NCBI RefSeq assembly: GCF_001661595.2
Contig: NZ_LYPF02000018.1
Coordinates: 62,001-126,000, forward strand
From: Crocinitomix algicola
Lineage (GTDB): Bacteria > Bacteroidota > Bacteroidia > Flavobacteriales_D > Crocinitomicaceae
DNA length: 64,000 bases
Direction: 5' to 3'
Of the stretch, positions 91 through 16,725 are shown one piece after another. The number at the start of each line of letters is the position of its first letter. Positions within the stretch are counted from its first letter, which is position 1. The translations under genes were made by a program, and so were the position numbers. Below the pieces are notes generated by a model that worked only from the letters and a program-made list of their open reading frames with translations, did not search any database and was not told where the DNA came from.

Positions 91-1202
91 CAAAAAAAAT
101 TATTCATATAGCTCTTGGAAAAGCAAATCCAAATCGTATGAATGGTGTTAACAAGGTCATTCATAGTTTAATTTCAGCGCAAGTTGAAATGGGAGTTGAT
201 GCAGAACTTTGGGGAATAACATTTAATACAACACATAATTATCCGACTAGAAACTTTAAAACGTATACTTTTTTAGACTATCGATTTAAATTTAAATTAG
301 ATTATTCTTTAAAAGAAGCCATTAAAAGTCTTAAAAATAAAACCAATCATTGCTTCCATCTGCATGGTGCATTTACTCCTCAACTTTATAGTGTAGCGCG
401 TTTATTAAAAAAGTATCGAATTCCTTACATTCATACTCCTCACGGAGGTTACAACCTTAAAGCTCTTGAAAAATCCAATCTTCGTAAAAAATTATACATC
501 GTTTTTTTTGAACGTTTTTTGGTCAATAATGCACACGGAATTCAACTAATAGGTCAATCAGAAGTGGAAGGTTTAAACCGATATTTTAAACCAAAAAAAT
601 ATGCTTTCATTCCAAATGGACAAGAGAAATTATTAGACAAAATTCCACCAAAAACAAAAGGTGAGCCTTTAAACCTTGGCTATCTAGGACGAATTGATAT
701 TCATACGAAAGGATTAGACATTTTGTTTGAAGCATTAGCAATTGTAAAAGATACCGTCGAAATACGACTAAGTATTATCGGTGAAGGTGGAGAATTAATT
801 GATTTAAAGACAAAAGCTGATGAACTAGGACTGTCAGAGTTTATAGATTTTAAAGGCGCTAAATTTGGAGAAGAAAAATATAAGTGTCTTGAGCAACTTG
901 ATGTTTTTTGCTTAGTCTCTAGGAATGAAGGGTTACCTGGAGTCGTGTTGGAAGCTGCTGCCGTTGGAGTACCTTCGATTATATCGATAGGTACAAATAT
1001 GCGCCCTTATGTTGAGCCAAACAATGCAGGCTGGATTTTAACGAATTACAATGCTAAGGCTTTGGCTGAACACATAATAGACATCAACCAGGAAAAACAA
1101 AATCATACACTTTTAGAAAAATCTGAAAATGCGCTCTGTATGATAGACAAAGTCTTTTCATGGCGTAAAATTGCCGAAGAATTAGGAGATTTATATGCTT
1201 AA
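87..1202 (+). CDS. Glycosyltransferase family 4 protein
   Basis: A 371-residue GT-B fold glycosyltransferase, expected to add a sugar from a nucleotide-sugar donor to a lipid-linked glycan on the cytoplasmic face of the inner membrane. The N-terminal acceptor half contains HTPHGGY near residue 117. The donor half begins at LGYLGRID (about residue 197), continues with HTKGLDIL, and carries the retaining-family E-x7-E motif in NEGLPGVVLEAA (about residue 280). The start overlaps the upstream stop (ATGA), and the end overlaps the next gene by 8 bp, which suggests translational coupling. The sugar and linkage cannot be read from the sequence. Confidence 0.85.
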   Translation: MTKKIIHIALGKANPNRMNGVNKVIHSLISAQVEMGVDAELWGITFNTTHNYPTRNFKTYTFLDYRFKFKLDYSLKEAIKSLKNKTNHCFHLHGAFTPQLYSVARLLKKYRIPYIHTPHGGYNLKALEKSNLRKKLYIVFFERFLVNNAHGIQLIGQSEVEGLNRYFKPKKYAFIPNGQEKLLDKIPPKTKGEPLNLGYLGRIDIHTKGLDILFEALAIVKDTVEIRLSIIGEGGELIDLKTKADELGLSEFIDFKGAKFGEEKYKCLEQLDVFCLVSRNEGLPGVVLEAAAVGVPSIISIGTNMRPYVEPNNAGWILTNYNAKALAEHIIDINQEKQNHTLLEKSENALCMIDKVFSWRKIAEELGDLYA

Positions 1203-2496
1203 AAAGGAGCCATATTTTTTGCGTAATATTGAGTGGATACTCACCTTAATTTTGTTCATTAAAATTGCTGGTTATTTTTCGATTACAGACATTAAAATTA
1301 TAACCCAAATATTTAAAGTGATCAGTCGTGTGGGGATGACAGGAGTTATATTATTACTGTTAATGAAACTAAAAGCACTTGGCTGCATTAACATCTTACA
1401 AATAAGAAATAGTATGAGCGTTCTACTTTATCTCTTGTATTTAGGATTAGGTTTCGCGTCATTTACTTGGTCTACTGACCCAAAATACTCAGCTCTTCAA
1501 TGGTTTATGACTTTCGAAAGTTTTGTTTTTGTTTATATCTATTTTAAAGTAGTCTATACAATTAACCATTATTTTGACCATCATTTTATCGATTTGGTCA
1601 AAGTATTTACAAAAGCAACTTTTCCGATTTTAGTTATTTTTATCGTTGGATCTTTTGCCTTACCCGAATTCTTTTATCGGGAAATGAGAGGTGGTGAAGA
1701 AATTCGTTTGGGTGGATGGATAATGAACCCTAATGAATTAGGAATGCTTGCCAGTTTAAATGGTGCATTAGCTTATGTTTTATTAGAAAAAAAAACAGCC
1801 AAGACTCAACTTTACCCCATCTTATCAATTATTGCCGCTTTAGTGATTTTAGTCCTTACTTCTAGTCGTTCTTCGCTCATTGGATTTCTCTTAATAATTG
1901 GAATATTAGTTTTACAATCCGAGAATAAAAAATTGAAAATTTCCTTAATAGTTCTCACTGTATTAGCCGCGCCATTCGCCATTAAAACAATCATTTTTAA
2001 AGATGGTGGAGGTGTTGAAGAAGTACTTTCGATGACAGGTCGTTTACCTTTTTGGACTGCATTGTTGAATGAAGGAATCGTGAAGGAACCCTTTTTTGGC
2101 TATGGGTTTATGCGTATAAACTATACCGAATACTTTCAAGGATTAAATACTTATCCCGGTAAAATGACTCACAATACTTTCATGCAGATACTGATGAATC
2201 TGGGATTTGTAGGTTTATTTATAGGCCTCATGCAAGTCTTCTTTACGGTCAAAAATTATTTTAAAAATAGAAGTGACAGCTATGCCAGCTTTTTCATTGC
2301 TCTATTTATTCCTGTTATGATAAACTCTTTTACGGAGTTTGGAATCTTTGGGGACGCCAACTATGGCATTCTTTTTTGGCAATTTTTAATCTTTCTTTTT
2401 GTCTTCGAAAAACGTGCGCACTTAACAAGTTTGGAAAAAGCGTCAATTAAACGATTTGAAAAACGATTTAAGGATTCCCAAAATGGGAATAGCTAG
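1195..2496 (+). CDS. O-antigen ligase/polymerase (Wzy-like) membrane protein
   Basis: A 433-residue polytopic membrane protein with about ten or eleven hydrophobic segments. The motif TSSRSSLIGFLLIIG near residue 222 is typical of the Wzy_C/O-antigen ligase superfamily, and the larger periplasmic loop expected in this family lies near residues 275-330 (GRLPFWTALL, then a Tyr/Phe-rich stretch). Such proteins polymerise lipid-linked repeat units or ligate the polymer in the periplasm. It overlaps the preceding glycosyltransferase by 8 bp. The last codons (SQNGNS, stop) lie inside a repeated palindromic element described separately. Polymerase and ligase cannot be told apart here. Confidence 0.8.
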   Translation: MLKKEPYFLRNIEWILTLILFIKIAGYFSITDIKIITQIFKVISRVGMTGVILLLLMKLKALGCINILQIRNSMSVLLYLLYLGLGFASFTWSTDPKYSALQWFMTFESFVFVYIYFKVVYTINHYFDHHFIDLVKVFTKATFPILVIFIVGSFALPEFFYREMRGGEEIRLGGWIMNPNELGMLASLNGALAYVLLEKKTAKTQLYPILSIIAALVILVLTSSRSSLIGFLLIIGILVLQSENKKLKISLIVLTVLAAPFAIKTIIFKDGGGVEEVLSMTGRLPFWTALLNEGIVKEPFFGYGFMRINYTEYFQGLNTYPGKMTHNTFMQILMNLGFVGLFIGLMQVFFTVKNYFKNRSDSYASFFIALFIPVMINSFTEFGIFGDANYGILFWQFLIFLFVFEKRAHLTSLEKASIKRFEKRFKDSQNGNS

Positions 2497-2511
2497 TCCA
2501 TATTGAGACAA
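2475..2511 (+). repeat. Repeated palindrome + ATTGnGACAA element, copy 1
   Basis: Positions 2475-2489 read TTCCCAAAATGGGAA, a 5-bp inverted repeat with a 5-base spacer, extended by one A/T pair to 2474-2490. The block ATTGAGACAA follows with its TTG at 2503-2505. A second copy at 7661 has the same palindrome, the same 13-base distance from GGGAA to TTG and the TAG stop codon at the same offset. This copy covers the stop of the Wzy-like gene and the 25-bp gap before the next gene. Confidence 0.7.
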
Positions 2512-2521
2512 AACTGCAAGC

Positions 2522-5254
2522 ATGAAACATTTTAAACCGTTGAAAAACAACGTTTTAACATCTTTGGCACAATTCTGTACGCATGGTTTGAAAAACAGAA
2601 TTATGTTCGGTCCTCAAAAAATTAAATTTTCAGATCTCGCCTTAATTTCAAAAATTATGGTGGGAACAAAAACCAATTTAATCATCTTTGATCCCTTAGG
2701 TCAAGTAATTTATGATGAAGAGGGAAATTTTAAGAAAAATGCAAAAAATGTTTTTGTAAATTTTGGGCAAGAGGTAACGACTTTCAAAGAGTTCAAGTTG
2801 AATGATTTTGATGCCATTCTTGACTTTGGTTCTGTTAAAAATATTCAATCATTTAAAGCTCATAGCTTTCAGGTATTTTCTACTAAAGCGAAAGATGTTA
2901 AATGGATTACAAAATCAGAAGACCGGTCCAATTCTATTCTTAACTTTCTTAACACAGACAGTGTTCGAGCAAAAGTAATTCGAACGGGTTTTAAAGCATT
3001 AAATTGGATGCGTTTGTCACACTTAATCAGTACTTCTTTTAAGGTTTACAATCAGGGGAACAAACTGCATTTCGAGAATAACTTACCTGAAATTAGCTAT
3101 GATAATTATTCAATTTTCTGTGGTGTTCCTGGCGTTTACAGAAAACCGGTTATACAACTAGTAGAAAACAACAAACCCGTTTCTTTTGTAAAGTTGGCAG
3201 TATCACAGAATAGCCACATTCAAATTGAAAAAGAAAGAAATATACTGAGAAAAGTAAATCAAATTGAGTTTACAAATTTAAGTGTTCCTTCAATTTTGGA
3301 AACAAAAAGTGAAATCTCATTAGCCACTTCCCCATTGTTTAAAACATCCAATTCAAAAATTAATGATAACATTTTAATCGAAAGTTTAATTCAAATCAAT
3401 TTTGCGCAGCAAAAGCACGTAAAATTTAGTCTTTCTAAAACAGCTTTTGATATCAACAAGCGTTTAGAATGGTTAAAAAACAACGGAAATGATACTGATT
3501 TATCATTAATTAAAAAACTTGAATTAGTGTATGAAAACCTGGATAAGCACCAATACCTTTTCACCTCTATTGCCCATGGCGACTTTACTCCTTGGAATAT
3601 CATATTAGGAGAAAAACCACAAATTATTGATTGGGAAATGGCCGAAAACGAACGTCCTTTGTTCTATGACCTTTTCCATTTTATTTTAAGCAAAGAATTA
3701 TTTATCAACCGAAATACGGACGGTCTTCACGCCTTAAAAAAAATTAAGAAAGTGCTTGCTAGTCCCCCTCTTACTACAATTACAAATAAGTATCGCGTAA
3801 ACATTGAAACAAACTTAAAAATTTATTTATTACACAAAATTAGCGAGCAACTTGTACTCTTTAACAAACAACGTATTGTCCATCACGAACATGAGATGTT
3901 ACGTATTTTATGGATGAACATTTTAGACCACTTTTTACCTCAAACAACTACAGTGGATCAACGAAGAGCTTTCCTACAACAAATAGAGGGGGTACTACAA
4001 GCCAAATCCTATGCTGCGATTAAATTTTTACATAAACAATTTACTGAAATTCCTGAAACCAGCGATTTAGACTTGATTATCGCAAAAAAGGATATCGAGT
4101 TAGTGATTAAATTCTGTAAAACACATCCGTATGTTGAAATGACAAAAGTGTTTCAGGACGCACATATGCATACGATAAAATTATTTTTTAAAAATGGTTC
4201 TTTCTTATCGATAGATCTCATTCATGAATTATCTCGGAAAGGAGTGAAATTTATTAAGATTGAAGATTATATTGCCTCTGCCGAACCAGTAAACAATGTC
4301 AACAGACCAACTTTATATTTTGATTTTCTGTACCTCATTTATTTTTACAATTTAAATGGCCAAAACATCCCAACTAAGTATAAAAATTATCTTCGCGACC
4401 GCTTAAATTCTGAAGAAGAAAAAGAGACACTCCTCACTAAAATAAATGCAAAAACTGGTTTAAATTATTCACAGCTCGATTTCTATTTTCTGTTGAAAGA
4501 ATCTGACCGAACATTACTCCAAAAACAAGTGAAGCAATCCAACAGTTCTTTTGGACTTTTAATAAGACGTTTTAGGTATTTAAGCTTCACCCTTAAAAGA
4601 ATGTTGACTGATTATGGAAAAGTTATCACATTTTCAGGTGTCGACGGAGCAGGAAAGACAACTGTTTTGACTAAAATTCAAACAGAGTTAACCAAAACTT
4701 ATCGAAAAGAAGTTGTCATTTTAAGACATCGACCGGGCATTTTACCAATTATTTCCACACTCAAATATGGGACTAAAGAAAAGGCCGAAAATGCGGCGTC
4801 AAATAGGCTTCCGAGACAGGGAAAAAACAAAAGTTTTTTAAGTTCTTTATTGCGTTTTGGTTACTATTATATGGATTATATTTTTGGTCAGGTATTCGTG
4901 TTCTTCAAGTATCGTTTAAGAGGTAAAATCATTATTTATGACCGATATTATTTCGATTTTATCAATGACGCAAAACGATCAAATATTCAACTTAACAGAA
5001 AATTCATTAAACTACTTTATGCCTTGGTACATAAACCAAAATTCAATTTCTATTTGTACAATACTCCTCAAGTTATTTTATCACGAAAAAAAGAGTTAAA
5101 AGCGGAGGATATCATTCAATTGAACACCAATTATGCGCAATTGTTTAATGAACTACAGGCTCAGCAATCAAATTCAGAATACATCCAAATTAAAAATGAT
5201 TATTTGGATGAAACGGTGAACAATATTATGCAACGATTAAAAATTATACTATGA
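2522..5254 (+). CDS. Fusion protein: phosphotransferase-like + nucleotidyltransferase-like + thymidylate kinase-like P-loop
   Basis: A 910-residue protein with at least three recognisable regions. Around residues 350-375, HGDFTPWNII and then IIDWE match the catalytic and metal-binding loops of aminoglycoside phosphotransferase/choline kinase-like enzymes. Around 505-570, SDLDLII followed by a second carboxylate in LSIDLI resembles a minimal nucleotidyltransferase. From about 704, GVDGAGKTT is a Walker A motif, and DRYYFD near 802 matches the thymidylate kinase DR(Y/F) motif. The N-terminal 150 residues are unrecognised. It sits in a polysaccharide operon, so a role in phosphorylating or activating a sugar or lipid-linked intermediate is plausible but unproven. 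It overlaps the next gene by 4 bp. Confidence 0.75.
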   Translation: MKHFKPLKNNVLTSLAQFCTHGLKNRIMFGPQKIKFSDLALISKIMVGTKTNLIIFDPLGQVIYDEEGNFKKNAKNVFVNFGQEVTTFKEFKLNDFDAILDFGSVKNIQSFKAHSFQVFSTKAKDVKWITKSEDRSNSILNFLNTDSVRAKVIRTGFKALNWMRLSHLISTSFKVYNQGNKLHFENNLPEISYDNYSIFCGVPGVYRKPVIQLVENNKPVSFVKLAVSQNSHIQIEKERNILRKVNQIEFTNLSVPSILETKSEISLATSPLFKTSNSKINDNILIESLIQINFAQQKHVKFSLSKTAFDINKRLEWLKNNGNDTDLSLIKKLELVYENLDKHQYLFTSIAHGDFTPWNIILGEKPQIIDWEMAENERPLFYDLFHFILSKELFINRNTDGLHALKKIKKVLASPPLTTITNKYRVNIETNLKIYLLHKISEQLVLFNKQRIVHHEHEMLRILWMNILDHFLPQTTTVDQRRAFLQQIEGVLQAKSYAAIKFLHKQFTEIPETSDLDLIIAKKDIELVIKFCKTHPYVEMTKVFQDAHMHTIKLFFKNGSFLSIDLIHELSRKGVKFIKIEDYIASAEPVNNVNRPTLYFDFLYLIYFYNLNGQNIPTKYKNYLRDRLNSEEEKETLLTKINAKTGLNYSQLDFYFLLKESDRTLLQKQVKQSNSSFGLLIRRFRYLSFTLKRMLTDYGKVITFSGVDGAGKTTVLTKIQTELTKTYRKEVVILRHRPGILPIISTLKYGTKEKAENAASNRLPRQGKNKSFLSSLLRFGYYYMDYIFGQVFVFFKYRLRGKIIIYDRYYFDFINDAKRSNIQLNRKFIKLLYALVHKPKFNFYLYNTPQVILSRKKELKAEDIIQLNTNYAQLFNELQAQQSNSEYIQIKNDYLDETVNNIMQRLKIIL

Positions 5255-6543
5255 GTACACATAATCGGCATATATTAATTACAGCCTATGCTGTTAATCC
5301 ATATAAAGGTTCGGAGGATGGAACTGGTTGGAATATTCCATTAGAATTAGCAAAAAGGAATAATATTAGCGTTATCACACGTAAAAATAATCAACCAGAA
5401 ATTGACCGATTTTACCGTGAAAATCCAAATCTAGCTGCCCTAAAAAATCTGACTTTCTATTATTACGACTTGCCAAAATGGGCTATGTTTTGGAAGAAAA
5501 AAATTGGAGAAAGAGGTTATGTGCTTTATTACTATTTATGGCAAATGTTTATACCTTTCTTCATTCGAGCGAATAAAATTCAATTCGATATTGCTCACGC
5601 CTTGAACTTTCACAGTGATAGTCATCCTCAATTTTTATGGGTATTTGGAAAACCTGTAATGTGGGGTCCTATTGGACATCACCGTAAGGTTCCTAAGCCT
5701 TTTATTAAAAGATTCTACAGTACTAAAACGTTTTGGAAAGATCGGTTATACAATTCGGTTAAGTTTCTCATGAGGAACCTTGATCCTTTCTATTATATAT
5801 CGAAATGGACGGCAAAACGAATCTTTGTTATTAACTCAAAAATCAATGATTCAGTGAGAGCTAACCCTAAAAAAATCATTATTTTACCCGCGGTAGCCAC
5901 CAATAATGTCGCTAGTCCACCCGTTTTGCATAACAATTATTTTAACGTACTTTCTGTGGGACGGTTTACCTATATGAAAGGTTTCGATTTAACAATAAAA
6001 GCATTCGCTACTTTTTATCACCAACTTGAAAAATCTGATCAACGCAAAGTCAAATTAACATTAGTTGGAAAAGGGGAAGAAACAAATTTAATCAAAGCTC
6101 TTATTCAAACTGAAGGATTAAGCAGTGCTGTCAAAATCATAAAATGGGTCGATCACAAAGAAATGCCTTCCATTTACCATGATTCATCTGCTTTTATTTT
6201 TGGCTCACATGAAGGTGCTGGAATGGTTGTTCCTGAAGCACTGGGGTATGGTGTGCCTGTTATATGCTTTAATAATGAGGGGCCTGGAGAATTATGTGAT
6301 AATTCTAACGCTATTAAAATTGATCCTACTACCTACTATGAAGCCGTTCACAATTTTGCAAATGCCTTAAATGAGCTTTATCAAAATCCTGGTAAAAGAG
6401 AAGAGATGTCTAGAGCCGGGGTTGAATACGCCAAAGAAAAATTCAATTGGTCCTACAAATCAAATGTAATAAATGAGGCTTATGATGCTGCCTCTCTCAA
6501 AAAGCACGAATCCCTACTAATTAAAAGAACAAGAACTACATGA
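5251..6543 (+). CDS. Glycosyltransferase family 4 protein
   Basis: A 430-residue GT-B glycosyltransferase of the exopolysaccharide operon. The donor-binding half starts at VLSVGRFTYMKGFDL (about residue 230), and the E-x7-E motif is in HEGAGMVVPEALGYG (about 320). The N-terminal half begins ILITAYAVNPYKGSEDGTGW, a pattern seen in a subset of GT4 enzymes that use the Gly-rich loop near the donor. The ATG lies in ATGA with the upstream stop, and its own stop overlaps the next ATG in the same way, so three genes here are tightly coupled. Specificity is unknown. Confidence 0.85.
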   Translation: MSTHNRHILITAYAVNPYKGSEDGTGWNIPLELAKRNNISVITRKNNQPEIDRFYRENPNLAALKNLTFYYYDLPKWAMFWKKKIGERGYVLYYYLWQMFIPFFIRANKIQFDIAHALNFHSDSHPQFLWVFGKPVMWGPIGHHRKVPKPFIKRFYSTKTFWKDRLYNSVKFLMRNLDPFYYISKWTAKRIFVINSKINDSVRANPKKIIILPAVATNNVASPPVLHNNYFNVLSVGRFTYMKGFDLTIKAFATFYHQLEKSDQRKVKLTLVGKGEETNLIKALIQTEGLSSAVKIIKWVDHKEMPSIYHDSSAFIFGSHEGAGMVVPEALGYGVPVICFNNEGPGELCDNSNAIKIDPTTYYEAVHNFANALNELYQNPGKREEMSRAGVEYAKEKFNWSYKSNVINEAYDAASLKKHESLLIKRTRTT

Positions 6544-7682
6544 AAAATATTGCCATCTTCCATCCTAGCACCGAACTTTACGGTGCTGATCGCATTATGG
6601 TTAATGCTGCAAATGCGATGCGCGAAGGTAATATTACGATATACCTACCTAAAGAAGGTCCGTTGATTGAATTCATACATAAAAATCTTCCAAATGCAGA
6701 CGTGAAAATTGTTGATTTCATGCCGGTAATTCAACGTTCGATGTTTTCACTGACCGGAATTAAGACGGCACTTAAATATTACCGCAAATTTAAATCCTAT
6801 TTTAAGTCAGAACACAAAAATAAGAACTTTGATCTCGTTTATGTCAACACTTTAGCATGCTCATTGTGTCTTCCCTTATTAAATCGAAACAAATACAAGG
6901 TAATTGTTCATGTACACGAAATTCTTGAACACCCTAAAATTGTCGCTAAAGTAACTGCCAAGCTGGCTTCAAAGTATGCAGATCGTGTTGTATGTGTTTC
7001 TGATGCAGTAAAGCAGAACCTGCTGAATTACACAAAAGACGCAGACAAAATTATTGTACTAAGAAATGGTATTGATCCGATAGATCGAGAAATTCAACTC
7101 CCTAATATGCAAGTGGAGTTTTTTTTATTTGGTAGGATTAAACCTGAAAAAGGGCAATGGTATTTGATAGAAGCTCTCAAAAAAATTAACCCTAACACCC
7201 TGGAATTAGCACATTTCAACCTCGTAGGAGGAACGGCTGCTGGTCGAGATGACTTACTTTATGATTTAAAAGCAAAAATAAAATCATATGAACTGGAAGA
7301 ATTTATATCTCTTATCGGTTTTACTGAAAACATAACTCCACTTATTTCTTCGGCTGATGTTTGCCTAATTCCTTCGCAAATGAAAGATCCTTTTCCGACA
7401 ACCGTTTTAGAGGCAATGTCAATTGGAAAAACAATCATTACGACAGATACTGGTGGAGCCAAAGAAGCTGTTATTAATGGTGAATCCGGTTTAATTATTC
7501 CACCAGATGACCCTCAAAAGTTTGCTGATGCCATTGAATTTTGCATTCAAAATCGCTACGAAGCTAAAGACCTGGGATATAACGCAAGAGATCGTTTTGA
7601 AGAAAATTTTACCCTTGAACATTTTAATTTAAAATGGCGAAAACTAATCGCTAAACTTTTTTCCCAAAACGGGAAGAATTAG
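6540..7682 (+). CDS. Glycosyltransferase family 4 protein
   Basis: A 380-residue glycosyltransferase with an acceptor half containing IAIFHPSTELYGADRIM at the N-terminus and VHVHEIL near residue 126. The donor half contains FGRIKPEKGQWYL (about 199) and the E-x7-E-like region DPFPTTVLEAMSIG (about 283). It follows the preceding gene with a 4-bp overlap. The C-terminus reads SQNGKN then TAG and coincides with the second copy of the palindromic element. The upstream Wzy-like protein also ends in SQNG plus two residues although the proteins are unrelated, so the shared DNA element sets these codons. Donor sugar unknown. Confidence 0.85.
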   Translation: MKNIAIFHPSTELYGADRIMVNAANAMREGNITIYLPKEGPLIEFIHKNLPNADVKIVDFMPVIQRSMFSLTGIKTALKYYRKFKSYFKSEHKNKNFDLVYVNTLACSLCLPLLNRNKYKVIVHVHEILEHPKIVAKVTAKLASKYADRVVCVSDAVKQNLLNYTKDADKIIVLRNGIDPIDREIQLPNMQVEFFLFGRIKPEKGQWYLIEALKKINPNTLELAHFNLVGGTAAGRDDLLYDLKAKIKSYELEEFISLIGFTENITPLISSADVCLIPSQMKDPFPTTVLEAMSIGKTIITTDTGGAKEAVINGESGLIIPPDDPQKFADAIEFCIQNRYEAKDLGYNARDRFEENFTLEHFNLKWRKLIAKLFSQNGKN

Positions 7683-7697
7683 TTCAAATTGCGACAA
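7661..7697 (+). repeat. Repeated palindrome + ATTGnGACAA element, copy 2
   Basis: Positions 7661-7675 read TTCCCAAAACGGGAA, and TAGTTCAAATTGCGACAA follows to 7697. Over about 37 bases it matches copy 1 at 2475 except at roughly eight positions, with identical spacing and an identical offset of the TAG stop codon (7680-7682). It is followed by a 90-bp gap before the next gene, in an operon where most other genes overlap. Confidence 0.7.
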
Positions 7698-7720
7698 CTT
7701 CAACTTACAAATAAAAGTAA

Positions 7721-7743
7721 AAACTCCCAAAAATAGGGTGTTT
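7721..7743 (+). promoter_or_regulatory. Imperfect hairpin in the gap before the DUF1972 glycosyltransferase
   Basis: AAACTCCC (7721-7728) can pair with GGGTGTTT (7736-7743) with one mismatch around an A-rich loop. No U-tract follows on the plus strand, so it is not a classical terminator. It echoes the CCC-AAAA-GGG core of the palindrome 46 bp upstream. It could be a weak attenuator or a protein site. Confidence 0.3.
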
Positions 7744-7778
7744 AAGAGGTTTGGCACAAATTTGGAACTCAAGTGGTC

Positions 7779-8999
7779 ATGCCAAAACAAAAAAAAATAG
7801 CATTAATTGGAACAGCAGGAGTACCTGCTAAGTACGGTGGTTTTGAAACGCTTGCACACAATTTAGTTGAAAAATTGAATAATGAATTTGATGTTCACGT
7901 TTATGCAAGTAAAAAAATCTATCCTAAAAATGAACGACCTCAATATTGGAAAGGTGCTAGAATACATTATTTAAGACTTTCTGCCAATGGCATTTCAAGT
8001 ATATTATATGATTTTCTATCAATGCTACATGCCATCCGATACGCTGATACCTTAATTGTTTTAGGTGTATCGGGTGGTTTATTTATTCCTTTTATCCGCC
8101 TCATTTCACGAGCAAAAATTATTGTGAACATAGACGGTTTGGAATGGAGACGAGATAAATGGTCAAAACCCGTTAAAAAATTCCTTCAAATCTCAGAACG
8201 ACTTGCCGTCCGTTATTCACACGCAGATATTACCGACAATTTATCCATCAAAAGATATACAGCAATCAAATATGGATCAATAAGCCATATGATTGCATAC
8301 GGAGCCGATCATTGTATAAACACAAAAATTCAAGCTTCAGACTTTAATAAATATCCATTCTTAAAATTACCCTACGCCTTCAAAGTTGCACGTATTGAAC
8401 CCGAGAATAATATCGACCTGATACTAAAAGCATACACACAATTACCAAATCAGCAACTTGTTATTGTCGGCAACTGGAAGTCTTCCGATTATGGGACAGA
8501 ACTTCAAGCAACCTACAATAAATTCATGCATATGCATCTTCTTGATCCAATTTATGATCAAACTCAACTCAACGTGCTTCGAGGAAATTGTACATATTAT
8601 ATACATGGCCACAGTGCGGGAGGAACGAATCCTTCTTTAGTAGAAGCCATGTTTTTAAAATTACCGATTCTGTCCTTTGATGTATCGTTTAACAGGGCTA
8701 CAACTCACAATAAAGCCATTTTCTTTAAAAATGAGCAAGAATTAATTCAAAAAGTAAATCAACTGACAAGAAAAGAACTCACTACAACCGCTGAAGAATT
8801 ATACAAAATTGCACAACAAGAGTATACCTGGAAAAAAATTGCGAATCGATACCGCTCATTGGTGTACCTCACACAAATCGCAGGGTTTAAAGCTAACTAC
8901 AAAAATTATGAGAAAAATCTTGCGGATGAAAAATGGATTACTGCTAAGTATCCCCATTTACTAAGACAAAATTACAATTTCAACCACCTCAACGATTAG
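7779..8999 (+). CDS. DUF1972-type glycosyltransferase (rhamnosyltransferase-like)
   Basis: A glycosyltransferase whose N-terminus, IALIGTAGVPAKYGGFET (from about residue 6), is the hallmark of the DUF1972 group. Members in other bacteria include capsule and exopolysaccharide rhamnosyltransferases. The C-terminal half carries GHSAGGTNPSLVEAM (about residue 285) at the position of the donor-site Glu. I place the start at ATG 7779 (406 residues); a GTG two codons earlier at 7773 is possible. It lies 96 bp after the preceding gene and 2 bp before the initiating transferase gene. Linkage and sugar are not certain. Confidence 0.8.
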   Translation: MPKQKKIALIGTAGVPAKYGGFETLAHNLVEKLNNEFDVHVYASKKIYPKNERPQYWKGARIHYLRLSANGISSILYDFLSMLHAIRYADTLIVLGVSGGLFIPFIRLISRAKIIVNIDGLEWRRDKWSKPVKKFLQISERLAVRYSHADITDNLSIKRYTAIKYGSISHMIAYGADHCINTKIQASDFNKYPFLKLPYAFKVARIEPENNIDLILKAYTQLPNQQLVIVGNWKSSDYGTELQATYNKFMHMHLLDPIYDQTQLNVLRGNCTYYIHGHSAGGTNPSLVEAMFLKLPILSFDVSFNRATTHNKAIFFKNEQELIQKVNQLTRKELTTTAEELYKIAQQEYTWKKIANRYRSLVYLTQIAGFKANYKNYEKNLADEKWITAKYPHLLRQNYNFNHLND

Positions 9000-10695: not shown

Positions 10696-11256
10696 ATGGA
10701 ATTACAAATAAAAAATATGGTATGCGACCGATGTATTATGGCCGTAAAAAATATACTTCAGCAAGCAGATGTTGAAATAAAATCCATTCAACTTGGCAGA
10801 GTTGTTACCAAGCATTCTATTACCCAGCAACAAATTGATTCCATCAATGAAAAATTAACGGCCATAGGTTTTGAAATAATTGAGAACAAAGATTCTAAAC
10901 TTATCAATGAAATAAAAACAAAAATCATAGAATTGGTTCATTACAATAAGACCAATTTGAAAGTGAATTTATCAACTCACATTGCGCAAAAATTAGGACA
11001 GGAATATAGTTATTTAAGTAAACTTTTTTCAAATTCTGAAGGCATAACAATTGAAAAGTATTATATCTTACAAAAAGTTGAACGCGTAAAAGAACTTTTA
11101 ACATACCAAGAACTAAACCTAGAAGAAATTGCAGATCAATTAGGCTATAGCAGCAATGCTTACCTTACTAATCAATTTAAAAAAATAACAGGTTTCACGC
11201 CTTCGCAATTTCGAAAGCTACCAATTGATCAGCGTCAAAAAATTGAACACCTTTAA
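10696..11256 (+). CDS. AraC-family regulator with N-terminal HMA-like metal-binding domain
   Basis: A 186-residue predicted transcription factor. Residues 1-65 resemble a small heavy-metal-associated ferredoxin-like domain: the metal loop reads MVCDRC (residues 8-13), matching the family's MxCxxC. Residues about 75-180 form an AraC/XylS DNA-binding domain with two helix-turn-helix units, including EEIADQLGYSSNAYLTNQFK and the end motif GFTPSQFRK. Joining the two in one chain suggests direct metal sensing at DNA. The next gene also begins with an HMA domain and is the likely target. It is preceded by the operon terminator, so it has its own promoter. The exact metal (Cu, Ag, Zn or Hg) cannot be read. 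Confidence 0.8.
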   Translation: MELQIKNMVCDRCIMAVKNILQQADVEIKSIQLGRVVTKHSITQQQIDSINEKLTAIGFEIIENKDSKLINEIKTKIIELVHYNKTNLKVNLSTHIAQKLGQEYSYLSKLFSNSEGITIEKYYILQKVERVKELLTYQELNLEEIADQLGYSSNAYLTNQFKKITGFTPSQFRKLPIDQRQKIEHL

Positions 11257-11329: not shown

Positions 11330-12040
11330 ATGACACATCAATATACAGTAACAGGCATGACCTGTGGAAGTTGCGAATCAAAAGTTGAAAACGCCTTAAC
11401 ATCAGTCGAAGGTGTTGTAAAAGTTAATGCAAAAAAAGATGAAAACTTGGTTACCATTACAATGGAAAACCATATCCCTCTTAACCAGTTTAAATCAGTT
11501 TTACCCGAAAAATACACGATTACTAACAGATTCATAGACCAAAGTGAGGCGAAAAAAACCTGGTTTCAAACCTATAAACCAGTCCTTATGATATTCTTCT
11601 ATATCACGGGTATAACATTTTTACTTCAATTCAGCAGTGGAGACTTTAATTTAGCCGACTGGATGCGGCATTTCATGGCTGGTTTTTTTATTACCTTCTC
11701 ATTCTTTAAAATGCTCAATTTAAAAGACTTCGCAATGAGCTATCAAATGTATGATGTGGTGGCAAAACGATTTAAAGCATGGGGCTATATCTATGCATTT
11801 ACAGAACTAGGATTAGGAATTGCATTCTTGTTAAACTTATGGCCATTTTATATCCATCTCATTACATTTATTGTGATGTCTATTAGTATTATTGGCGCAA
11901 TTGAGACCGTTGCGAACAAAAAAAAGATTCAATGTGCGTGTTTAGGAGCCGTTTTTGATTTACCAATGAGTAACATTACAATTATTGAAGATGGTTTAAT
12001 GATTGTAATGAGCGGTGTTATGCTATTCCAGTTGTTTTAA
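11330..12040 (+). CDS. HMA-domain protein fused to MauE/DoxX-like membrane domain
   Basis: A 236-residue protein. Residues 1-65 are a classic heavy-metal-associated domain with YTVTGMTCGSCESKVENAL, in which the CxxC pair binds Cu(I) or a similar soft metal. From about residue 85 to the end there are four hydrophobic segments of the MauE/DoxX type, with a conserved-looking Cys pair in KKIQCACLGAVFDLPMS near residue 203. Metal relay to or across the membrane is likely. It follows the HMA-AraC regulator by 73 bp and precedes a methyltransferase by 13 bp. Whether it transports, chaperones or reduces is not clear. Confidence 0.75.
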   Translation: MTHQYTVTGMTCGSCESKVENALTSVEGVVKVNAKKDENLVTITMENHIPLNQFKSVLPEKYTITNRFIDQSEAKKTWFQTYKPVLMIFFYITGITFLLQFSSGDFNLADWMRHFMAGFFITFSFFKMLNLKDFAMSYQMYDVVAKRFKAWGYIYAFTELGLGIAFLLNLWPFYIHLITFIVMSISIIGAIETVANKKKIQCACLGAVFDLPMSNITIIEDGLMIVMSGVMLFQLF

Positions 12041-15804: not shown

Positions 15805-16725
15805 CTATTGATTAACTTTTTGAACTTTAATCGTTTGCTCTGAATACGATGAAATTACCCTTACCAGGTATAAGCCTGATTCATTTTCGCTTAAATCAAG
15901 TTCAAAATTATGCTCACCACTGTCTAGCATCCCTTCGAACAAAGTTTGAATTTGGCGACCATTCATATCATAAACTTGAACTTGATAATACCCTCGATTC
16001 ACAATTTCAAAAACTACATTCGTTATACTTTCTACAGGATTTGGAAAAACTTTAAGATCAATTTCCATTATAGGTTCTTCAGTGTTCGGTTCCTCTTTCA
16101 AAGTATCCTCCAAATAGGCCATATATGTAGGTTGCTCAACTACTAAAGCCCCTGACAAGATCATCTGTGGTACACCTCCCAATTCTGATGGGCCAATTAA
16201 CGATTCTGTCAGAATAACTGTGTCTCCAAGCAACTCACTTTCTTCAGCTATGCACTCCACCTCTCCGGCTAATTCAGTTTTTCCCAAAACGGGAATGTCT
16301 ACAAAATCAATAAGATCAAATTCTTCTCTGTCATGAATCGAATTAATATATTGCGGTCGTTCACTCGGCCCTTTTGCCAATTGAATGGTAAAACTTTCTA
16401 TAATTTGACGATCAGACTCATTTGCACAACTGAATAAACCTATTCCAAAAACCAAAATTAAAGCAAATAAAAACTTAGATCTAAATGTTTTTTTACGGTT
16501 TGATTTCCATTGAACAAACTCACGATTAAGCTGATTTAGCTGAGCCGTTTTAAATTGACCACAAATGTGTTTTCCTTTACTGTTCAAAAGAATTTTATTG
16601 ACCGCTGCATTCGACATTTTTCGAAAATCGTAAGTATCGATTTTACATTTTGCACAAAATGCTCCTCTTTCAGTTGGCGTCATTTTGTTAAAATCTTCAT
16701 TACATGGCGATGGAATTGAAATCAT
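15805..16725 (-). CDS. Four-Cys domain, transmembrane segment and T9SS type A sorting domain protein
   Basis: A 306-residue protein of unusual build. Residues 1-60 hold Cys8, Cys24, Cys27 and Cys55 in a compact domain (PCNEDFNKM, FCAKCKIDTYDF, HICGQF) that recurs, as I recall, at the N-terminus of Bacteroidota membrane-anchored proteins. Residues about 84-102 form a hydrophobic helix ending GLFSC, which looks like a lipobox. A linker rich in Glu and Pro follows. The last 80 residues are a T9SS sorting domain with VFPNPVE, VYDMNGRQI and SGLYLVRV. No ordinary cleavable signal peptide is present. The 15-bp palindrome TTCCC-AAAAC-GGGAA lies in this gene at 16281. Function unknown. Confidence 0.65.
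   Translation of the reverse strand: MISIPSPCNEDFNKMTPTERGAFCAKCKIDTYDFRKMSNAAVNKILLNSKGKHICGQFKTAQLNQLNREFVQWKSNRKKTFRSKFLFALILVFGIGLFSCANESDRQIIESFTIQLAKGPSERPQYINSIHDREEFDLIDFVDIPVLGKTELAGEVECIAEESELLGDTVILTESLIGPSELGGVPQMILSGALVVEQPTYMAYLEDTLKEEPNTEEPIMEIDLKVFPNPVESITNVVFEIVNRGYYQVQVYDMNGRQIQTLFEGMLDSGEHNFELDLSENESGLYLVRVISSYSEQTIKVQKVNQ
16281..16295. repeat. Third exact copy of the TTCCC-AAAAC-GGGAA palindrome
   Basis: The 15 bases are identical to 7661-7675 in the polysaccharide operon. Here they lie within the coding sequence of the T9SS-tail protein, and the ATTGnGACAA block does not follow on either strand. It could be a protein-binding site or chance. Confidence 0.5.

Follow-up and report, generated by a model that had tools for sequence, protein, structure and literature searches.

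Why should two unrelated polysaccharide genes of a single operon end in the same short repeat? The question is raised by a 64,000-nucleotide stretch of the Crocinitomix algicola genome (contig NZ_LYPF02000018.1, positions 62,001 to 126,000; this whole stretch is called the window below, and coordinates refer to it unless a contig or locus is named). At 2475–2511 and 7661–7697, a Wzy-like gene and a glycosyltransferase gene carry almost the same palindrome, followed by a common block, across their stop codons. A first-pass annotation of this DNA had proposed a mobile or regulatory cassette boundary, an RNA element or a recombination site. The answer favoured here, with a probability of about 0.88, is that the element consists of tandem enhancer sites that drive sigma54-type promoters within an exopolysaccharide cluster and that are bound by the cluster’s own activator. 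The regulatory suggestion was the one to gain support, while the specific RNA and recombination proposals did not. Most likely the element represents no new type but a well-formed example of a gene switch of known kind.

Both copies of the repeat were located, and 30 of their 37 bases are identical. As had been annotated, the TAG stop codon lies at the same offset (+19) in each copy, and the two proteins end in S-Q-N-G plus two residues (DSQNGNS and FSQNGKN). The first palindrome, here termed the primary operator of junction B, is TTCCCAAAATGGGAA (2475–2489, plus strand) and overlaps the 3′ end of the Wzy-like gene; that of junction C, TTCCCAAAACGGGAA (7661–7675, plus strand), overlaps the 3′ end of the glycosyltransferase gene. 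The repeated unit extends beyond these 37 bases. A weaker copy of the palindrome follows 20 bp downstream at both junctions, AGTCCATATTGAGAC at 2495–2509, which is the best-scoring site in its flank and holds most of the ATTGnGACAA block, and AGTTCAAATTGCGAC at 7681–7695, both on the plus strand; these second operators therefore explain the block and its fixed spacing. Further along, TTTGGCACAAnTnTG is also common to B and C, starting at 2563 and 7750 (88 and 89 bp past the start of the palindrome), and TGGCAC, which resembles a −24 element, starts 90 bp (B) or 91 bp (C) from that same point. It belongs to the sigma54-like promoters B, TGGCACAATTCTGTA (2565–2579, plus strand), and C, TGGCACAAATTTGGA (7752–7766, plus strand), in both of which the −24 part is good and the −12 part imperfect.

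The further copies that the first-pass annotation had recommended looking for do exist. The exact 15-mer palindrome, TTCCCAAAAYGGGAA, has four copies in the whole 3.7-Mb genome, all on the same contig (C10), against none for a reversed-pattern control and about 0.013 copies per genome expected from composition; a span of 13 kb holds three of them. The third of these, site A, is outside the window, at C10:56936, 7.5 kb upstream, where it separates the regulatory from the export genes of the cluster and lies 8 bp past the stop codon of a kinase gene. At A, B and C alike, TGGCAY lies downstream of the palindrome; counted from where the palindrome starts, the distances are 71, 90 and 91 bp, and an ATG follows 27–38 bp past the TGG. 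When a strict composite was defined as the operator followed after 52–78 bp by TGGCAY, this genome gave three matches, all within the cluster, and the control gave none; a search with the inner core of the operator alone added one match, on contig C11. Among 150 genomes of the family, the strict composite occurs in 14, as opposed to 1 of 150 with the reversed pattern. A homologue of the cluster’s activator (E ≤ 1e−90) is present in 13 of these 14 genomes, compared with 71 of the 150 overall.

The geometry of these sites was studied in a set of 22, drawn from this genome and others. All 22 operators start between −30 and +32 bp from the last base of the upstream stop codon, which bears out the placement at gene ends, and all 22 sites have an ATG 27–47 bp past the TGG (frames were not checked one by one). 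The distance from the primary operator to the TGG is 69–71, 88–91 or 113 bp. In an overlapping set of 18 sites, six of which had been found by motif in other genomes, the distances are phased with the DNA helix (R = 0.78 at 10.5 bp; Rayleigh p about 2e−5). A second operator, taken as the best-scoring site within 45 bp, lies 17–22 bp from the primary one in 21 of the 22 sites, the sole exception being in the genome G026, whereas in 300 shuffles such sites numbered 4.2 on average and at most 10; the primary sites of this very set had supplied the scoring matrix, orthologous sites are not independent of one another, and the search rules limited the distances. In these 21 sites, the second operator is upstream when the primary is at about 70 bp and downstream when it is at 88 bp or more. 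Because the second operator flips sides in this way, the positions at about 70 and 90 bp appear to be used regardless of which operator is stronger; two sites, at 93–94 and 113, depart from this. The composites at 68 bp in G020 and at 93 bp on contig C7 of G090 were excluded as coding-like by eye, that on contig C111 of G090 was left out of the phasing, and site A of G097 and the site of G118, being near copies, did not enter the 18-site test. Matches resembling IHF sites were seen between operator and promoter in 3 of the 22 sites (shuffle mean 0.17, maximum 2).

The same sites recur at the same junctions in relatives. The genomes for this comparison were chosen by protein similarity and not by motif (G026 was found both ways), and in seven of them export genes follow the sensor genes: the present one, which belongs to the genus of Crocinitomix catalasitica, C. 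catalasitica itself, G097, G008, G023, G119 and G134. Site A is present in all seven, and also in G060 (where the contig ends), G026, G049 and G061. Site B, at the junction between the Wzy-like gene and the following gene, is likewise found in seven of seven. Site C, between the third glycosyltransferase gene and the DUF1972-family gene, was found by the search rule in four of six (the present genome, C. catalasitica, G008 and G134). The two arms of the palindrome have changed together, to TTCTC-N5-GAGAA, in G049, in G061 and at site A of G119 and G134. More widely, H-NOX matches occur in 53 of the 150 family genomes, and a site is present in 11 of the 20 loci examined in which the activator gene lies beside an H-NOX gene; in G052, G042 and G034 there was nothing beyond weak matches. 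The sequence comparisons support the positions and spacing of the sites, their recurrence at matching junctions and the assignment of an activator gene and of RpoN to this genome.

Several observations weigh against this account. The −12 dinucleotides of the three promoters of the cluster are GT, TA and GA, none of them the canonical GC, and a C at that position is present in only 8 of the 22 sites (the canonical GC occurs at site A of C. catalasitica, G060, G097 and G008); a stricter pattern with TTG near −12 gave no match in this genome and was found in 6 of the 150 family genomes. At site A of G119 and G134, the −24 element is TGGAAC and not TGGCAY. The TGG[CA]A element and the distance range do not count as independent evidence because they were part of the search rules, as was the TGGCAY at −24 of the three sites of the cluster, and the extra composite on contig C111 of G090 is out of phase, at 76 bp. 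Junction C of G023 and G119 has only degenerate look-alikes; one rule match in G119, inside the glycosyltransferase gene, was not counted. Nine of the 20 activator/H-NOX loci (L055, L059, L060, L062, L063, L065, L066, L075 and G115, two of them on short contigs) have no site, and none of these nine gave an export-gene match; no site was seen either in L051 and L078, which combine activator and export genes without H-NOX. In G026, the sensor genes and site A are both retained, yet the 35 kb examined there gave no match to the exopolysaccharide genes of the query set. There is also the fourth exact palindrome of the genome, at 16281–16295, within the minus-strand gene 15805–16725, which was not assigned to the system. 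In the 250 bp downstream of this palindrome, neither strand has a TGGCA, and the one minus-strand TGGCA within 250 bp (TGCCA at 16375) is upstream of the palindrome on that strand. Given the number of copies expected from composition, chance is no easy answer for it.

How the enhancer sites would be used can be proposed from the order of genes. The cluster begins with an NtrC-type response regulator (C10:52638–53975), an H-NOX protein and a PAS-PAS-histidine kinase-REC protein; after site A come a 127-amino-acid orphan, a REC-only protein, Wza-like and Wzc-like proteins, a flippase, a glycosyltransferase and the Wzy-like protein; site B is followed by an 883-amino-acid kinase-like protein and two glycosyltransferases, and site C by the DUF1972-family glycosyltransferase and a WecA/MraY-like protein. 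The response regulator has REC (PF00072) and AAA+ (PF00158) domains, a lid, the GAFTGA motif and, by eye, a Fis-like helix-turn-helix (HTH), and the genome encodes one RpoN (E 7e−54). The binder of the element is most likely this regulator. Once phosphorylated, it would occupy both operators, the strong and the weak one, which are about 20 bp apart and usually about 70 and 90 bp ahead of the −24 element, reach sigma54-RNA polymerase by DNA looping and hydrolyse ATP to open the promoter. Promoter A would then serve the short orphan gene, the REC protein and the Wza/Wzc-like export genes, promoter B the 883-amino-acid gene, and promoter C the DUF1972 glycosyltransferase.

The adjacent PAS-PAS hybrid histidine kinase, whose C-terminal Hpt domain was recognised by eye only, from LAHKIKPS, would supply the phosphate. 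The kinase in turn may be under the control of the H-NOX protein, whose gene lies between those of activator and kinase, so that nitric oxide (NO) would set the production of exopolysaccharide. The H-NOX protein matches PF07700 (E 3e−46), and its IHPEV and YRSSR segments align to solved H-NOX chains, with the proximal His and the YxSxR motif that the family is expected to have. Phe presumably stands at the position of the distal Tyr of the O2-binding members, which suggests that NO is the ligand. The chain from H-NOX through kinase and activator to three promoters is proposed from the gene order and the circuit of Vibrio fischeri compared below. We infer three things: binding by this activator, use of sigma54, and NO as a signal that lowers activity, where the direction of the effect is a guess made by analogy.

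Could the parts be right and the wiring different, with another regulator, a promoter of another class or an H-NOX ligand other than NO? The genome has six strong sigma54-activator genes, the −12 elements are imperfect, and NO is a predicted ligand of this H-NOX. The helix GKSTIYRM is present in 65 of 94 homologue rows (some genes are repeated among the rows), yet most of those loci have no such site; GQTT or GQST is found in 12 of the 94. Nevertheless, among the four activators of this genome (of six) whose C-termini were compared, GKSTIYRM occurs only in that of the cluster, its close paralogue having GQTTVYRLL, and the sites recur next to the activator gene in relatives. A different wiring is improbable, although it deserves a hearing. 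Another possibility, an RNA hairpin that would act in antitermination or attenuation of a long operon in the manner of RfaH or UpxY, had been among the first proposals and is very unlikely. The palindrome could indeed form a hairpin of 5–8 bp, and folding z-scores are −1.1 (A), −1.2 (B) and −2.3 (C). Three sites from relatives, however, gave −0.2, −0.5 and −2.3, the last not as the simple hairpin, and folding is weak to moderate over all six. With respect to the direction of transcription, the palindrome centre is found in either orientation, AAAAY in this genome and GTTTT in G026, and site A of C. catalasitica and G008 has lost the outer base pair with no compensating change. An Rfam scan of 2300–7900 gave nothing above threshold (one microRNA match had 20 bits against 51), the only NusG-domain protein found in the genome is encoded on another contig, with no second one of RfaH type, and the element precedes a promoter-like site at a phased spacing.

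The two remaining explanations concern how the repeat came to be where it is. Palindromic repeats at gene ends might be recombination sites, or boundaries of mobile cassettes, for the shuffling of gene modules, but the flanking genes keep their order in the relatives examined, both around site B (Wzy-like gene, site, 883-amino-acid gene) and around site C (third glycosyltransferase gene, site, DUF1972 gene), and we give this idea scarcely any credence. Equally hard to believe is that a duplication of 3′ coding sequence gave both genes one tail. It would account for the matching S-Q-N-G ends and stop offsets, but the third copy of the element lies past the stop of an unrelated gene, that of the kinase, and the operator of junction B starts past the Wzy stop in four of six relatives (C. 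catalasitica, G023, G097 and G134), as does that of junction C in all three relatives that have it by the search rule. At junction B, the operator overlaps the gene end in the present genome, G008 and G119, at other offsets in the latter two. Because the position of the B operator relative to the stop varies among relatives, the S-Q-N-G tail is best regarded as a local accident and not as a conserved protein signal.

With tandem enhancers and their promoters as the preferred reading, the genes around the junctions can be described further. The Wzy/O-antigen ligase-like gene (1195–2496, plus strand; PF04932, E 9e−18) lies upstream of junction B and the glycosyltransferase gene (6540–7682, plus strand; PF00534, E 4e−33) upstream of junction C. 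The overlaps of 8, 4, 4 and 14 bp and the 2-bp gap annotated at other junctions of the operon are correct. Of the two wider gaps reported, that of 96 bp at C stood; that of 25 bp at B had been counted from an upstream ATG at 2522, and becomes 106 bp when the in-frame ATG at 2603 is taken as the start, which is preferred because the position of the promoter and the relatives suggest it. The 883-amino-acid gene so revised (2603–5254, plus strand) begins 38 bp past the TGG of promoter B, by which it would be served; its product has an APH-like phosphotransferase part and a C-terminal kinase-like part under the Pfam cut-off, where a P-loop weakly resembles that of thymidylate kinases, and the gene follows Wzy in the relatives examined at this junction. 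Promoter C would serve the DUF1972-family gene (7779–8999, plus strand). The flippase was assigned by eye, as Pfam and NCBIfam gave no match. The orphan past site A (L018:17045–17428) likewise has no Pfam or NCBIfam match and is recognisable, at 29–34%, in G026, G060 and G097. Elsewhere in the window, 10696–11256 encodes an AraC-type HTH protein with, by eye, a metal-binding-like N-terminus, and 11330–12040 an adjoining membrane protein with a similar N-terminus.

This operator is no general feature of the activator family, because an exact search for TTCCC-N5-GGGAA in 60 activator loci, including that of C. catalasitica (L020), the sites of which are mismatched, gave two palindromes, both without a promoter. 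One mismatch together with TGGCAY gave 24 matches, compared with at most five for each of nine permuted palindromes, in a set that included loci picked by motif. A scan of 59 loci for tandem operators gave one convincing case, L053, from an uncultured Microscilla (63 control cores gave a mean of 0.05 matches at two mismatches or fewer); at four mismatches, the real core gave eight matches, not above the controls (mean 3.2, maximum 13). There (L053:11341–11460), the interval from the activator gene to a FIST-domain gene holds two perfect TCCC-N5-GGGA cores, which are 21 bp apart and 91 bp ahead of a TGGCAT; to judge from the sequence, a more distant lineage of Bacteroidota has this operator as well. 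The composite stands ahead of other genes in the genus g17 and in G108, and several of these genes encode, by eye, secreted-looking proteins or lipoproteins. Unrelated genes follow the composite in L129 (G098), L131 (G105), L138 (G108), L144 (G148), L146 (G136) and L147 (G063), by eye those of secreted-looking repeat proteins, a lipoprotein and a LuxR-type regulator. These placements suggest a wider regulon in other genera. An exact operator lies just ahead of the activator gene in L127 (4138–4152), and near operators were seen by eye in L134, L135 and L137, so autoregulation is possible in those loci; the 180 bp preceding the activator gene of the present cluster showed no operator by eye.

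To our knowledge, few sigma54 activator-operator pairs have been worked out in Bacteroidota. With the present locus, an operator, its probable activator, the geometry of the promoters and the operon that they would serve can be named concretely, and the type strain C. catalasitica ATCC 23190 has them too. A search of the open-access literature, covering top titles and the openings of abstracts, gave no description of this arrangement in Bacteroidota, and one may well be in print elsewhere.

Three known systems may be compared with it. The sigma54 regulon of Flavobacterium psychrophilum also comprises Bacteroidota sigma54 promoters (SM4), which were mapped by transcript ends, one of them being tested by mutation; candidate activators were counted and sites not assigned to them in the excerpts available (PMC9723704). 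Its targets, unlike those proposed here, are in protein quality control, envelope stress, gliding motility and exported proteins, and those excerpts describe neither an activator site nor an exopolysaccharide cluster. The PrsK/PrsR system of Proteobacteria, known from PEP-CTERM proteins, is closer in that an NtrC-type regulator is linked to exopolysaccharide and a 17-nucleotide motif, sometimes repeated, lies on average 63 nucleotides (32–92) ahead of a −24/−12 element (PMC1569441). As far as the excerpts of that paper go, the PrsR motif differs in ending in TTTACA and its targets are mostly single PEP-CTERM genes, while PrsK is a transmembrane kinase of another type, with no H-NOX protein described beside it. 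The activator of the cluster scored 354.9 bits against the PrsR model TIGR02915, below its cut-off of 502.6.

In Vibrio fischeri, hnoX and hahK lie apart from the syp exopolysaccharide locus, which contains several sigma54 promoters. There, according to the parts of the two papers available, the NO sensor HnoX inhibits HahK, a histidine kinase from which the chain runs through SypF to the activator SypG; together with sigma54, SypG turns on syp (PMC12369376, PMC10162802). The likeness to the cluster is in the whole chain, from an NO sensor through a histidine kinase and a sigma54 activator to an exopolysaccharide locus, and, in the same excerpts, in the two upstream SypG sites at qrr1 (PMC10162802). 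The operators are unlike each other, that of SypG being TTCTCANNNTGMDWN in that source. The nearest relative of SypG in V. fischeri is given there as LuxO (PMC10162802), and the activator of the cluster scored 321.7 bits against the LuxO model NF041946, far short of its cut-off of 800. The arrangement differs too: in Crocinitomix, a member of another phylum, the genes for sensor, kinase, activator and export are all together. We lean slightly towards a complete one-locus NO switch for exopolysaccharide in Bacteroidota, in which three phased tandem-operator promoters would co-activate the export, kinase-like and glycosyltransferase modules, and which would have arisen without any link to the syp system of Vibrio. 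If the H-NOX input is true, NO would be tied to matrix production in this lineage, in parallel with the circuit of the squid-symbiont Vibrio.

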